Source: Sporosarcina sp. ANT_H38
GTDB taxonomy: Bacteria; Bacillota; Bacilli; Bacillales_A; Planococcaceae
Direction of reading: 5' to 3'
NCBI RefSeq assembly: GCF_008369195.1
Contig: NZ_VOBC01000001.1
Span: 2,480,001 to 2,544,000 of the forward strand
Length of the DNA stretch: 64,000 nucleotides
Part shown: in pieces, positions 17,297 through 56,593 of the stretch
Position numbering within the stretch: the first letter of the stretch is position 1
Layout: every line of letters begins with the position of its first letter
Program-made: the position numbers and the translations under genes
The notes under the pieces: model-generated
What the model saw: the letters and a program-made list of their open reading frames with translations, nothing else
Told to the model about the DNA's origin: nothing
The model's database searches: none

Positions 17297-17405
17297 GGTA
17301 ATTGGTAGTGTGTACAAAACCTTTCTTATGTTGAAAATATATTATAGGATAGTAATAGCGTGATTTCATGATGAATACAACTCTATGTGGTGAGATAGAG
17401 ATAGC

Positions 17406-17971
17406 TTTCAAATACGCTTTGGCGCTAGGGGATGCCTCCCGCCATAAGCCTGATTACTGCGCTATCAGTCTTATAGCTTCGGCTACCCCTGTTAGGCGCC
17501 TTCGCTGAGTTTTCATAGCAAAACAGTCACCAGTAACATGGAGAAAAATGCTTCGTGTCGGTTACTGACACCACACTTTGGGTACCAAGACATAGACTGA
17601 AAATCTCTAGGAGCATATGGAACATAGAGTTTCCTTTCAAATACGCTTTGGCGCTAGGGGATGCCTCCCGCCATAAGCCTGATTGCTGCGCTATCAGTCT
17701 TATAGCTTCGGCTACCCCTGTTAGGCGCCTTCGCTGAGTTTTCATAGCAAAACAGTGACCAGTAACATGGAGAAAATGCTTCGTGTCGGTTACTGACACC
17801 ACACTTTGGATACCAAGACATAGACTGAAAATCTCTAGGAGCATATGGAACATAGAGTTTCCTTTCAAATACGCTTTGGCGCTAGGGGATGCCTCCCGCC
17901 ATAAGCCTGACCGCTGCGCTATCAGTCTTATAGCTTCGGCTACCCCTGTTAGGCGCCTTCGCTGAGTTTTC
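17406..17971. repeat. 2.5 tandem copies of a ~228-bp unit built on a palindromic element
   Basis: Units start at 17406, 17635 and 17863 (spacing 229 and 228 bp) and are nearly identical. Each begins TTTCAAATACGCTTTGGCGC and folds as an imperfect palindrome of about 105 bp (GCGCTAGGGGATGCC ... GGCTACCCCTGTTAGGCGC). A linker containing GTGTCGGTTACTGACACC joins the units. The third copy lacks the linker. Related single elements occur at 25064, 60985 and 63726. Apparent reading frames across it are by-products of the repeat. Confidence 0.85.
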
Positions 17972-18020
17972 ACATGTCATATCTATACTCAATATATAAA
18001 AACAGAAAGAGGCGATAAGC

Positions 18021-19797: not shown

Positions 19798-19935
19798 TAT
19801 ACGCGCGTCAATAGACGATATGATTGGTCTGAGACGTTATATGATTGCTTGTCAAGGTTGTACGATCTGTCCACACGCTTATATGATCGACCAACAAGGC
19901 TATATGATCGGTACGCATGCTTATATGATAGCTCA
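19798..19935 (+). repeat. 21-bp tandem repeat array 1 (about 7 units)
   Basis: TATGAT or a variant recurs at 19798 (degenerate), 19819, 19840, 19861, 19882, 19903 and 19924, exactly 21 bp apart. Consensus is close to TATATGATCGGTCNNCACGCT. The array lies between the pcp start and the glgP terminator. Because 21 is a multiple of three it creates a spurious peptide with LYDR repeats. Arrays 2 and 3 have the same period, core and orientation. Confidence 0.85.
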
Positions 19936-25219: not shown

Positions 25220-25498
25220 TATTCGGCACTATTTATTTCGAATTGACTAGGCGGTATATCTCACCAGTATAACGAACAAGTCTAGCGAAGAAGCGACACT
25301 AATGAAAGGCAGCCTAATATCGCCGCGTCCTGCGGCAAAGGCTGCACACCCGCTTCCTGCAGGCGCCGAAGCAATAAGACCTAGGAGGGATGTAGTTCAA
25401 TCCCTCCCCAGCGAACTTCTGACGGTCTTATTGCGGAAGGCCATCACCAAGCGACTAAGCGGTGTTGGAAGAACACTCCATTTGTTAAGTGCCGAATA
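25220..25498. repeat. second MITE-like element between glgC and glgD
   Basis: Terminal inverted repeats TATTCGGCACT (25220-25230) and AGTGCCGAATA (25488-25498) bound about 280 bp. Inside are a perfect 11-bp inverted repeat GCAATAAGACC / GGTCTTATTGC (25371-25381, 25424-25434) and GGAGGGAT / ATCCCTCC (25384-25407). The inner modules recur in the insert at 45721-45815. It encodes nothing recognisable, so a non-autonomous mobile element is likely. Confidence 0.65.
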
Positions 25499-35796: not shown

Positions 35797-35978
35797 AGAT
35801 ATGATTGGTCGGCGCACTTTTTTGGTTGGTCTACAAGTTTATATGATTGGTCGGCACACTTTTTGATTGGTCTACAAGCTTATATGATCGGTCGGCACAC
35901 TTTTTTGATTGGTCTACAAGCTTATATGATCGGTCGGCACACTTTTTTGATCGGTCTACAAGTTTATATGATCGGTCA
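35797..35978 (+). repeat. 21-bp tandem repeat array 2 (9 units, 42-bp higher-order pattern)
   Basis: Unit cores start at 35800, 35821, 35842, 35862, 35883, 35904, 35925, 35946 and 35967, with spacing 21 except one 20. Two unit types alternate: TATATGATCGGTCGGCACAC and TTTTTTGATTGGTCTACAAG, giving a 42-bp period. The array lies between the merR operator region and the terminator of the aminotransferase gene. Same core and orientation as arrays 1 and 3. Confidence 0.9.
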
Positions 35979-40720: not shown

Positions 40721-41392
40721 ATGATGAAGGCGAATGTGGGGATTGCGAAAGAACTGTTACAACAATATGCTGCTATATTGGACGACTGGATACCAAAGGA
40801 TGCTGCTGTTGCGATTGCAGTTGGCGATCGCTACATTTATTACGTGGAAGGCATTCATCAGATCGAATTAAAAGAAGGGCAACCCGTTATGTCCGGTAGT
40901 ATTGCCGATAAAGTAATTAGCGAGCGACTTAAAGTTGATAAAATCATGGATAACACATTGTTCGGAGCCTCGTATTATGGAATCGGCTATCCAATTGACC
41001 TCCAGGGCCAGCCCGGTGCACTAATCGTTATCTTGCCGCCGAATTATCATGTACTGAAACACGAACCATTTCGCTTCCTTACTGGCAAGCAAGAAGAAGA
41101 ATGGAGTCCTATTCCAATCGAAGAGATTGCCTATATCGAAAGCTTACAAAAGAAAACCTGGTTTTATGTTGATGGTGAACAGTTCTGTACCAGTCATACG
41201 CTGAAAGATTTGCAACTGCGGCTACCGAAGACATTTCTACGCATCCACCGTTCATACATTGTCAATATTTTAGCCATCGAGCGCATTTCTAGGGATATTA
41301 CTTCAAATCTTTTGCTCACATTAAGAGATGGTACAGAGTTGCCTGTTAGCCAGACATATATGGCTGATGTTAAGAAGGCACTTGGGTTTTAG
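40721..41392 (+). CDS. LytTR-domain one-component regulator with an N-terminal sensor-like domain
   Basis: The C-terminal half (about residues 125-220) is a LytTR DNA-binding domain: IPIEEIAYIESLQKKTWFYV, LRLPKTFLRIHRSYIVN, LRDGTELPVSQTYMADVKK. The N-terminal half is not a response-regulator receiver and lacks the phospho-acceptor Asp pocket. The stretch YYGIGYPIDLQGQPGALIVI resembles the core of small-ligand sensor domains. There is no membrane segment. AAAGGGGG lies 8 nt before the first of two ATGs. Divergence from aceA suggests it controls the glyoxylate bypass, possibly sensing a carboxylate; that is inference. Confidence 0.8.
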   Translation: MMKANVGIAKELLQQYAAILDDWIPKDAAVAIAVGDRYIYYVEGIHQIELKEGQPVMSGSIADKVISERLKVDKIMDNTLFGASYYGIGYPIDLQGQPGALIVILPPNYHVLKHEPFRFLTGKQEEEWSPIPIEEIAYIESLQKKTWFYVDGEQFCTSHTLKDLQLRLPKTFLRIHRSYIVNILAIERISRDITSNLLLTLRDGTELPVSQTYMADVKKALGF

Positions 41393-41404
41393 GATTTTTT
41401 CGGG

Positions 41405-41710
41405 TGGTATGATCGTTTGGTGGGCGGATATGATTGCTGTGCTGGAGTATATAATCAGTCTGCGGATGGATATGATTGGTCCGCTGGGATATACGATCGG
41501 TCTGCGGATGGATATGATTGGTCCGCCGGGGTATAGGATCGGTTTGCAGCGTTATATGATTGGTCCCCTGGGGTATATGATCGGGGTGCAGCGTGATATG
41601 ATTGGTGCCCTGGGATATATGATCGGGTGCAGCGTGATAGGATTGGTCCGCTTGGGTATATGATCGCTCTGCGTGTGGATATGATTAATTCACTGAGTTA
41701 TATGATCGCT
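41405..41710 (+). repeat. 21-bp tandem repeat array 3 (15 units, 42-bp higher-order pattern)
   Basis: Cores (TATGAT or close variants) start at 41408, 41429, 41450, 41471, 41492, 41513, 41534, 41555, 41576, 41597, 41618, 41638, 41659, 41680 and 41701, spaced 21 bp except one 20. Units alternate between GGATATGATTGGTCCGCTGG and GATATACGATCGGTCTGCGG types. It fills the space between the LytTR gene and the convergent pyruvyl transferase terminator. Confidence 0.9.
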
Positions 41711-41726
41711 CCACACCACAAAACAC

Positions 41727-41769
41727 AAAAAAAGCCACAAAAGTAGCATTCACTTTTGTGGCTTTTTTT
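41727..41769. terminator. bidirectional terminator between LytTR and pyruvyl transferase genes
   Basis: AGCCACAAAAGT / ACTTTTGTGGCT is a perfect 12-bp stem with a 7-nt loop, flanked by A7 and T7 so it works on both strands. Confidence 0.9.
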
Positions 41770-41776
41770 GTGTTAT

Positions 41777-42922
41777 TCACTTTTTCTTTATTGCTGCTAC
41801 AAACTGTTCTGTCCCTTTCATCGATTCATCGTACAAGTCCTGGGACAGTTTTTTTGTATCTTCGACCGTTGCGGGCCAGTTTTCTTTCATAGCATTGAAT
41901 GCATCCAAGAACAATGTTTGCTGTTTATTGATGTTCCCAATTGGAAAAGCATACTTTTCCAAGTGAGCGAGTTTCATGAAGTCATTCACTTTATGGTGAT
42001 AGGAAATTGCCATGACGGGTGTCTCTGTGCAAGTTGCCAAAATTAATGAATGGAGCCTCGTACCGATAATGATATCTTGCTGTGCTGTCACATCCAATAT
42101 CATATTTGGCAGAAGATTATCATCGATGATTGTCGTCTTGTCTTTATGTGTCATTTTTGCCTGGATATCTTTTGTGACATCTGCATCTTGCGGGAACTTT
42201 GTAGCAAAAAATGTCAGTTCCACATTGTGCTGCGCTGCAAGACTGTCCAGGTTTTTCGCCATACCTTCTACATAATCATTATAAATTGTGGGATTACCTT
42301 CCGGCCAATAACCTGCATTGTAATAAGGGACAGCGGTAATACCAATTTTTGTTGGCACAGCCGATTTTTCCACACCCGTTTGACGTAAGGAAAACGCCGG
42401 ATCACCGATAGTCAAAACTCGTTCTTTCACACCGATTGATTTCAACAGTTCAGCAGATTCAGGGTCACGTACCGAAATACTATCTGCATGTTTAGCCATA
42501 TAGCGGATGAACCATTTTCCTAAACCACTGCTTAATGGACCGGCACCACATCCGTAAACAACATAAGGTGTATTCGAGTTTTTAGCCATCATTGCGTATG
42601 ATCCAAATAACGGCGCTTCTCTTTTATATAAATCCATTAAGATTCCGCCGCCACCTATAACAAGAAGATCAAACGTTTTAACGATTTTTTTATTATTTTG
42701 ATACGTTGCGAAAAATGTCTTTACTGCATTGCCTTTTTTATAATACAGTGGAAAACTCGTTACGCTATATCGTTCTGCTGTTTGTTTAGGATTATTACTA
42801 AATACAGTTAGATCATTGCTGCTTATCTTGAACGTTGACGTCAACTGTTTAATAATGCTAAGTAAAATTGCCTCGTCCCCGTTATTATCATTTCCATAAT
42901 TACCCACAACACCAATTTTCAT
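41777..42922 (-). CDS. polysaccharide pyruvyl transferase family protein (CsaB-like)
   Basis: Family members transfer pyruvate from phosphoenolpyruvate to a sugar of a cell-surface polymer. The N-terminal GVVGNYGNDNNGDEAILLS and the C-terminal GTRLHSLILATCTETPVMAI and SYHHKVNDFM are typical. CsaB pyruvylates the secondary wall polymer that SLH domains recognise, and six SLH proteins are encoded in this window, which makes that role attractive but not proven. ATG at 42922 is preferred (GAAGGAA about 8 nt upstream) over an in-frame start at 42958. Confidence 0.85.
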   Translation of the reverse strand: MKIGVVGNYGNDNNGDEAILLSIIKQLTSTFKISSNDLTVFSNNPKQTAERYSVTSFPLYYKKGNAVKTFFATYQNNKKIVKTFDLLVIGGGGILMDLYKREAPLFGSYAMMAKNSNTPYVVYGCGAGPLSSGLGKWFIRYMAKHADSISVRDPESAELLKSIGVKERVLTIGDPAFSLRQTGVEKSAVPTKIGITAVPYYNAGYWPEGNPTIYNDYVEGMAKNLDSLAAQHNVELTFFATKFPQDADVTKDIQAKMTHKDKTTIIDDNLLPNMILDVTAQQDIIIGTRLHSLILATCTETPVMAISYHHKVNDFMKLAHLEKYAFPIGNINKQQTLFLDAFNAMKENWPATVEDTKKLSQDLYDESMKGTEQFVAAIKKK

Positions 42923-42980
42923 TTGACAACTTCCTTCACTACATGATTGTTCCATCATAACATAACTGTGCTATTTCATG

Positions 42981-45677: not shown

Positions 45678-45884
45678 CGAAAAGCGGAAGCGCCGTTTAG
45701 ACGTGACAGGCATAAGACGGATAAAGGAAGGCAGTCTAAATTCGCGACATCGTGTCGCAACAAGGAGGGATGAAGTTCAATCCCTCCCGACTGCATGACC
45801 TGCATCCTGCAGGCCTAAGTGGCGTTCTTTGCCACGCAGTCGGGCTGGCTTATGACCCGAACGTCTGGCGCCTGGAGCTAGACA
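45678..45884. repeat. GAAAAGCGGAAGCGCC-type repeat, copy B, carrying a nested insert
   Basis: Identical edges to copy A, but about 100 bp (45721-45815) replace a few bases of the interior. The insert holds its own palindromes: GCGACATCGTGTCGC, GGAGGGAT / ATCCCTCC (45764-45787) and CCTGCATCCTGCAGG. Similar modules occur in the element at 25220-25498. Confidence 0.75.
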
Positions 45885-54502: not shown

Positions 54503-56593
54503 ATGAATTTTTATAACTATCAAAGAAATTGTTTTAATGGTCGAAAATTTATTATTCCTTGTTCTAGTCACAATTTCCGTAAAATAGTATGCACAGGACC
54601 TCCTGGACCTCCGGGACCTCCAGGTGCTACTGGTGCTACCGGTGCTACTGGTGCTACTGGTGCTACTGGTGCTACTGGTGCTACTGGTGCTCAAGGTATT
54701 CAAGGATTACCGGGAACTACCGGTGCTACTGGTGCTCAAGGTATTCAAGGATTACCGGGTACTACCGGTGCTACTGGTGCTACCGGCGCTCAAGGGTTGC
54801 CAGGTACTAATGGCGCGGACGGTGCTACTGGCGCTACCGGCGCTCAAGGTATTCAAGGGTTACCAGGTACTAACGGCGTAGACGGTGCTACTGGCGCTAC
54901 TGGTGCTACTGGTGCTACTGGCGCTCAAGGTATTCAAGGGTTGCCAGGTACTAATGGCGTGGACGGCGCTACTGGTGCTACCGGCGCTCAAGGTATTCAA
55001 GGGTTGCCAGGTACTAATGGCGTGGACGGCGCTACTGGTGCTACTGGCGCTCAAGGTATTCAAGGATTGCCAGGTACTAATGGCGCGGACGGCGCTACTG
55101 GTGCTACCGGCGCTCAAGGTATTCAAGGGTTGCCAGGTACTAATGGCGCGGACGGCGCTACTGGTGCTACCGGCGCTCAAGGTATTCAAGGGTTGCCAGG
55201 TACTAATGGCGCGGACGGGGCTACTGGCGCTACCGGCGCTCAAGGTATTCAAGGGCTACCAGGTACTGACGGTGCTACTGGCGCAACTGGTGCTCAAGGT
55301 ATTCAAGGATTACAGGGAACTACTGGCGCTCCAGGATTACCGGGAACTAACGGAGCTGACGGGGCTACTGGCCCTCAAGGTATTCAAGGGTTACCAGGTA
55401 CTGACGGTGCTACTGGCGCAACAGGACCTCAAGGTATTCAAGGGTTACCAGGTACTAATGGTGTAGACGGCGCTCCAGGATTACCGGGAACTGACGGGGC
55501 TACTGGCGCTACAGGACCTCAAGGTATTCAAGGATTACCAGGTACTAACGGCGTGGATGGCGCTCCAGGATTACCGGGAACTAACGGAGCTGACGGGGCT
55601 ACTGGCCCTCAAGGTATTCAAGGATTACCAGGTACTAACGGCGTGGATGGCGCTCCAGGATTACCGGGAACTAACGGAGCTGACGGGGCTACTGGCCCTC
55701 AAGGTATTCAAGGGTTACCAGGTACTAATGGTGTAGACGGAGCTCCAGGATTACCGGGAACTGACGGGGCTACTGGCGCTACAGGATTACCGGGAACTAA
55801 CGGAGCTGACGGGGCTACTGGCCCTCAAGGTATCCAAGGATTACCAGGTACTAACGGCGTGGATGGCGCTCCAGGATTACCGGGAACTAACGGAGCTGAC
55901 GGGGCTACTGGCCCTCAAGGTATTCAAGGGTTGCCAGGTACTAATGGCGTGGACGGTGCTACCGGCGCTCAAGGTATTCAAGGGTTACCAGGTACTAACG
56001 GAGCTGACGGTGCTACCGGCGCTCAAGGTATTCAAGGATTGCCAGGTACTAATGGCGCGGACGGCCCTCAAGGTATTCAAGGGTTACCAGGTGCTAGTAC
56101 AGTAATACCATTTGCATCAGGAACTTCGGTTGTAACTTTGAATACACTAGCATTAGGATTAGTTGGTACTCCGGCTCTTGTAGGATTCGGAAGTTCTATT
56201 CCAGGCGTTTCTATTCTCGGCAGTTCATTCACACTTCCAGCTCTAAGTAACTTTAGCTTTATGGTTCCTCGTACAGGGACCCTTACAAGTATTTCAGCAT
56301 ACTTTAATAGCACAGTAGGACTAAGTCTCATAGGTTCTACGGTGACTGTCCATGCAGAGGTATATCGTGCATCCGGCAATAGCAATGAATTTTTCGCAAC
56401 AGGCGTTACTGTACCTCTAACATTTACTGGAACAATCAATATCGGTACCATAGAGACTAACACCGCTAGCGGCTTCTCATTAGGAATAAACGCAGGAGAT
56501 CGTTTACTAATGGTATTTTCCGCTACTGCAACAGGGCTCAGTCTAGTAAACACTATAACAGGTGCTGCAAGTGCAGGTTTGACAATCAATTAA
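54503..56593 (+). CDS. BclB-like collagen-repeat spore-surface glycoprotein
   Basis: A short N-terminal region (about 31 residues) precedes about 167 uninterrupted Gly-X-Y triplets (54596-56098), beginning [13 protein letters not shown] and dominated by [16 protein letters not shown] blocks. The C-terminal domain (about 165 residues: [68 protein letters not shown]) matches the BclB exosporium protein C-terminus. The domain likely trimerises and forms hair-like fibres on spores, with threonines as sugar sites. ATG at 54503 has a perfect AAAGGAGGTG 5 nt upstream, so an upstream in-frame ATG at 54446 is rejected. Two block types (with [11 protein letters not shown] or DGAPGLPG) show growth by internal duplication. 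Confidence 0.9.

Follow-up and report, generated by a model that had tools for sequence, protein, structure and literature searches.

Tandem arrays at gene ends in Sporosarcina and relatives keep a two-turn spacing between species while the repeated word differs: a possible DNA-binding platform of a kind not yet described

The window studied here (the whole stretch of DNA analysed, 64,000 nucleotides of Sporosarcina sp. ANT_H38) contains a tandem array of direct repeats between a LytTR gene, whose stop codon lies 14 bp ahead of the array, and a convergent polysaccharide pyruvyl transferase gene (Table 1). Two features described in the sequence-only reading are real: the unit detector gave 15 units, with 13 of the 14 gaps measuring 21 bp and the remaining one 20 bp, and two unit types alternate in a 42-bp super-period, with TRF scores of 289 for period 83 (two dimers), 277 for period 42 and 124 for period 21. 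That reading counted 31 units in the window; the three arrays are there, but the detector gives 30 units. No inverted repeats were found within the target array; complementary stretches able to form hairpins were spotted by eye in its spacers. The terminator-like hairpin of Table 1 separates the array from the stop of the pyruvyl transferase gene, and none of the three arrays of the window has an Rfam match. As a single word, with up to two mismatches, the core TATGATYGGTC occurs 67 times in the window, 29 of them within the three arrays, against an expectation of 32.7 (sd 5.5), such that outside the arrays it is not clearly enriched there. Other elements of the window are two matches to the Rfam Bacillaceae-1 RNA (25298-25363 and 45720-45813, + strand), a 228-bp unit repeated 2.5 times with 98% identity (17405-17972), and a region of dense repeats with periods that are often multiples of 9 bp (54596-56082), which we assume to resemble a collagen-like coding region.

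Table 1. Position of the arrays and of the elements that flank the target array within the window.
Feature	Coordinates	Strand	Description
Target array	41406..41711	+	15 units, core TATGATYGGTC, 42-bp A/B dimer
Second array, TATGATYGGTC family	35798..35977	+	9 units, one gap of 20 bp
Third array, TATGATYGGTC family	19817..19934	+	6 units, more degenerate
Left-hand gene, LytTR DNA-binding-domain protein	40721..41392	+	Pfam PF04397
Right-hand gene, polysaccharide pyruvyl transferase	41777..42958	-	Pfam PF04230, convergent
Hairpin, intrinsic-terminator-like	41734..41762		T-runs on both sides, by eye

The target array belongs to a family that is spread over the whole source genome (G000, an assembly of 4.63 Mb in 19 contigs). 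The pair ATGATYGGTC-N11-ATGATYGGTC, with up to three mismatches, was found 184 + 96 times genome-wide, and its reversed control 0 + 0 times. At least 36 arrays with 416 units were counted, of 4-27 units each and including the three of the window; the total is a lower bound, since 150 of the 876 first-look candidates were scored by the model search of the genome itself, and one stretch, L089, had no array with three or more units. Neighbouring arrays may lie on opposite strands (on C1, at 68 kb - and 87 kb +; at 2361 kb + and 2376 kb -), so that, with the origin of replication not located, no orientation that follows the fork, as in replication-polar signals of the KOPS/Chi kind, is evident.

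Each unit is made of a core of 11-13 bp and a spacer of 8-10 bp, the spacers being duplicated as dimers. From 152 units, the G000 core reads T-A-T-G-A-T-Y-G-G-T-C, and the two positions that precede it avoid C. Core identity was 0.781 between arrays and 0.77 between adjacent units, figures raised by construction because units were selected by core likeness, which leaves spacer identity unaffected; the latter was 0.287 between arrays, against 0.272 expected from composition. Inside arrays, spacer identity was 0.307 for adjacent units, 0.687 for next-but-one units and 0.321 for units three apart, and the next-but-one value exceeded the adjacent one in 34 of the 36 arrays. Since next-but-one spacers are alike and adjacent ones are not, arrays grow by 42-bp steps, and the core is held for a reason other than this growth. 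The contrast of core and spacer between arrays was also seen in a second genome, G002, and in both array types of S. limicola (G006), the second of which has adjacent spacers that are somewhat similar (0.36-0.63 by position).

The pitch is nearly fixed. With a chain detector that accepted distances of 18-24 bp, or a single missing unit, and penalised departures from 21, the G000 gaps (n=380) were of 21 bp in 333 cases, 20 bp in 35 and 22 bp in 1; with a detector allowing 19-23 bp and multiples, the corresponding counts were 112, 122 and 3 in G002 (n=252) and 313, 163 and 3 in G006 (n=480). The claim that spacing is stricter than sequence is thus borne out, with gaps nearly always of 20 or 21 bp and spacers near background. 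A strict 21-bp period was too narrow a description: the pitch is kept, but gaps of 20 bp also occur, in G002 as often as those of 21 bp. Likewise, the phrase 'rather than passive slippage' is too strong, as duplication in 42-bp steps does amplify arrays.

A scan for the core across the genome and related Planococcaceae had been proposed as a check. It revealed the G000-wide family, but the core is not universal and the relatives carry others. Among 61 genomes, the TATGATYGGTC pair with up to two mismatches was found 208 times in G000, 98 in G027, 58 in G002, 10 in G009, 6 in G017 and at most once in each of the rest (controls at most 3). Other genomes of Sporosarcina, the genus being taken from named orthologues of the right-hand gene, have arrays of equal pitch with different cores. 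ATYGGTCGCTT occurs 257 + 135 = 392 times in G006 and no more than 7 times in any of the 40 remaining genomes of the genus (controls 0), and TTGRRCGCG, for example, 455 times in G032, 445 in G064, 321 in G012, 305 in G004 and 3 in G000. For the latter word the reversed control is high in several genomes, among them G010 (115 + 36), G025 (51 + 32) and G061 (35 + 78), where the pattern is not clean; we take this as a putative sign of another, GCGCGAGTT-like array type (compare the named loci L263 and L266). The AGCGGTGATA pair was found in 13 of 41 genomes (70 in G036, 67 in G006, 60 in G032; control at most 1). AACGTGGAATAAA, the core of a Metasolibacillus array, occurs in each of the 5 genomes sampled from one genus but in 0 of 146 other genomes of the family (controls 0). 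Some cores are therefore private to one species or genus and others common to at least 12 genomes, and a genome may hold several.

The pitch itself extends further. A period detector (10-64 bp) applied to 28 named loci returned 21 rows, of which 18, in 15 loci, peak at 20-21 or 40-42 bp and the remaining three at 39, 18 and 52 bp; the former loci include Lysinibacillus composti, Metasolibacillus and Bacillus ndiopicus. By eye, monomer-like copies occur in G004. Among the matches listed, arrays of the AGYGGTGATAA type cluster, mostly on one strand, at G032:C11:532-734 kb, G006:C12:13-116 kb and G023:C1:140-313 kb, and are present outside those clusters too. At two loci (L280 8158-8337 and L282 4921-5061) the core AACGTGGAATAA and the stop codon of the preceding gene overlap.

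We then compared the target locus itself, with the pyruvyl transferase gene as the anchor in relatives and up to 520 bp of its 3' side at each of 21 orthologous loci. Arrays with a pitch of 20-21 bp are present at 7 of them, and their cores differ: TATGATYGGTC in G000, a TATGATCGGTG/TATGATCGCTT pair in G002, AATCGGTCGCTT in G006, CTTTGGACGCG in G032 and, by eye, TTGAGCGCG in G004, AAGCGGTGATA in G029 and TTATGAGCGCG in G034. The detector confirmed those of G002, G032 and G006 and added Sporosarcina sp. JAI121; in G002 and G004 the contig terminates within the array. The other 14 loci have no array in the stretch compared, and in some of them (e.g., G027, G063, G014, G011 and G017) the LytTR gene is replaced by a different one.

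Shared positions are not limited to this locus. When 27 arrays of G002 were compared, at least 13 of the 36 G000 arrays were matched by one at the orthologous locus, with equal side and orientation; when 43 arrays of G006 were compared, at least 4 of the 36 were matched, with a fifth partially so, all by arrays of the ATYGGTCGCTT type. By a rough estimate, with intergenic regions numbering in the thousands in each genome, chance alone would yield less than one locus in common. Arrays absent from relatives and free in period would have pointed to ordinary expansion; instead, they are present at orthologous loci and their pitch does not vary freely. Between orthologous arrays copy number varies, and spacer likeness is 0.40 compared with 0.32 for random pairs; so little memory in the spacers means that turnover is fast. 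Arrays are gained and lost between species.

The arrays also have a preferred place. In 29 of the 36 G000 arrays the right-hand gene, in array orientation, points at the array, and a terminator-like hairpin lies between the two in 19 of these 29 cases, a raw count without a background rate. Compared with other gaps, in a baseline built on simple ORF calls and limited to lengths of 60-800 bp (convergent gaps are often shorter), array-bearing gaps were convergent in 11/34 cases in G000 (others 9/78), 7/19 in G002 (2/36) and 16/37 in G006 (3/52), with p values of 0.014, 0.0054 and 3.4e-5. None of the array gaps was divergent in G000 (0/34, others 21/78) or G002 (0/19, others 13/36), with p values of 0.00034 and 0.0021; the depletion in G006 was not significant (4/37 vs 12/52, p 0.17). 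In tandem array-bearing gaps a promoter may still be nearby. A TGTGGATAA-like word, presumably reminiscent of a DnaA box, lies to the left of 4 of the 7 G000 arrays that are followed by a + gene (L088, L095, L113 and L115). Twenty neighbour proteins of the 36 arrays (19 right-hand, 1 left-hand) include FtsZ, CTP synthase, an AAA/M41 protease, lipoate ligase, MurJ, a cytochrome bd subunit, SOD and a phosphorylase, and one of the 20 has no Pfam match. We rejected a regulon of related genes, as the neighbours examined are functionally unrelated, with nothing obvious in common.

The recurrence of one core at dozens of loci, among spacers that bear no relation to each other, points to a reader of this core, and to this extent the cooperative DNA-binding platform of the sequence-only reading is supported, with the protein itself still inferred. 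Our preferred explanation, adopted tentatively, is that an array serves as a platform on which a multimeric protein binds DNA; the word it recognises would shift from one lineage to the next, and its role at gene ends would be insulator-like. We are led to a multimeric binder of drifting specificity because the core is kept across loci, the spacers are free, the pitch equals two turns, and pitch and locus outlast the core. Each core of 11-13 bp would be one site, arranged head to tail, for a sequence-specific multimeric protein; at a distance of 20-21 bp, two helical turns, the sites would fall on about one face of the DNA such that the subunits could touch and bind cooperatively, and the bound subunits would wrap or stiffen 100-500 bp. 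The arrays immediately follow the 3' ends of many unrelated genes, in many cases where two genes converge, and there they would most probably serve to insulate, either blocking transcription that reads through, as a roadblock, or taking up supercoils, an idea suggested by the gene-end placement and the convergent enrichment. The target word of the protein would drift by lineage and the arrays of the genome would follow, with pitch and position retained. The presence of several core types per genome, some of them common to many genomes, means that several such factors would be needed. The 42-bp amplification step, for which the binding model does not account, speaks against the platform, and so do the gain, loss and fast turnover of arrays, the coexistence and sharing of core types, and the non-significant divergent depletion in G006.

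No binding factor for the arrays was found. In the protein encoded next to the target array, the part of the LytTR domain which we take to contact DNA barely differs among species whose cores do, and thus this protein is probably not the reader. As the domain hardly varies and LytTR is present in 41 of 41 genus genomes (G000 has 7 matches), this neighbour is disfavoured as the cognate factor.

Known systems show that the geometry of the arrays is workable. The CoxC operator has three repeats at intervals of 18-21 bp, and LytTR regulators are described as using direct repeats at two-turn intervals (PMC11347149). Like the arrays, with their 20-21 bp pitch, the operators of CoxC and RcoM are short direct head-to-tail repeats two helical turns apart, and the target array follows a LytTR gene; binding of a LytTR protein to the arrays is hypothetical. 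The operators described there, however, have 2-3 sites at promoters, whereas the arrays have 4-27 sites each and follow the ends of genes at dozens of loci, and no array lies in a divergent gap in G000 or G002. Of two other proteins, RemA forms a ring, has a LytTR-related domain and is suggested to wrap DNA where weak sites recur periodically (PMC8481266), and BldC forms head-to-tail multimers on variable numbers of direct repeats (PMC5859096). Their repeats, as described there, have a spacing of about 9-10 bp and occur at promoters or upstream of these, in contrast to 20-21 bp at gene ends, and the descriptions mention neither a 21-bp array nor gene-end placement.

A serious rival, although we consider it rather improbable, is a selfish extragenic repeat of the REP/BIME kind, in which a hypothetical enzyme would target the core, place copies of it at gene ends and evolve together with it in each lineage, while the host gains nothing. 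It fits a dispersed, extragenic family at gene 3' ends with lineage-dependent sequences and several types per genome, and PMC3733652 describes comparable traits for REPs, with associated RAYT transposases, and a proposal that gyrase cleavage at ORF 3' ends relieves supercoiling. The family fails to be REP-like on hairpins and transposase. REPs are palindromic, whereas the array units are not, the target array has no inverted repeats, and the units are not clear hairpins: mean fold z for array strand/reverse (25 shuffles each) was -0.85/-0.21 in G000 (28 arrays), -0.53/-0.14 in G002 (25) and -0.53/-0.73 in G006 (28). Although at least one Y1_Tnp (RAYT-class) match is present in 32 of 41 genus genomes, there are 0 in G000, the richest of the 61 genomes in the core TATGATYGGTC; RAYT association is not absolute, as CGTC-type REPs are said to lack a dedicated transposase (PMC3733652). 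Nor would a REP-like origin predict the 20-21 bp pitch or common loci with changed cores.

Ordinary minisatellites, that is, short direct repeats that replication slippage has expanded where a terminator and the following gene leave the DNA between them unconstrained, are an unlikely explanation. Bacterial minisatellites (VNTRs) resemble the arrays in tandem copies, variable number and local amplification; the 42-bp dimers are clearly amplified within arrays (next-but-one spacer identity 0.69), copy number varies between orthologous arrays, and divergent promoter regions are avoided in two genomes. However, the likeness of whole adjacent units typical of VNTRs is absent in the 36 G000 arrays (0.307 vs 0.287) and present only at the level of the 42-bp dimer (0.687). 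VNTR loci have unrelated units, whereas these arrays have one core in common and a pitch that hardly strays to 22-23 bp, and slippage would not give loci in common to species with different cores.

Improbable to a greater degree is that the array acts as RNA, with the repeated word in read-through transcripts binding a protein or small RNA and setting the fate of the mRNA 3' end. The position just past gene ends, often behind the terminator-like hairpins counted above, would suit such a role; folding is weak, though, the arrays of the window lack an Rfam match, and a pitch of two B-DNA turns has no obvious meaning in RNA. A heptapeptide-repeat protein (21 bp being seven codons) was rejected as next to impossible: long open frames do cross some arrays (e.g., 41328-41663), but 16 of the 36 G000 arrays have gaps indivisible by 3 and 122 of 252 gaps in G002 are of 20 bp. 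A phage or plasmid origin was also set aside, as the G000-type core had 0 exact matches in viral_contigs and no blastn match in plasmids or phages. In CRISPR arrays the repeats measure about 23-47 bp, the spacers are unique and cas genes lie next to the array; here the core is 11-13 bp, the spacers are of 8-10 bp and duplicated as dimers, and the target array is flanked by LytTR and pyruvyl transferase genes.

No published description of such arrays was found among the matches listed, mostly from open-access literature. In kind they are extragenic repeats or operator arrays, and they would be more than a variant of these if the platform with a swappable word is true. That spacing is kept between species while the word changes suggests an undescribed DNA-binding platform and not ordinary repeat junk. 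The broader proposal, possible but in our view doubtful, is a code of fixed-pitch, swappable-word arrays at gene ends of the Planococcaceae, in which drifting multimeric binders and dozens of co-evolving arrays per genome would insulate transcription units; if true, it would be a prokaryotic counterpart of the co-evolution of satellites and their binding proteins. Even without any protein, a repeat family whose pitch and loci outlast its sequence demands a new explanation. The core of each species is a ready bait for a protein, and, if the binding model is true, the arrays would be a repeated insulator-like element of the chromosome whose recognition word changes by species while spacing and location are retained, and would offer a natural series for the joint change of a DNA-binding specificity and dozens of its sites.
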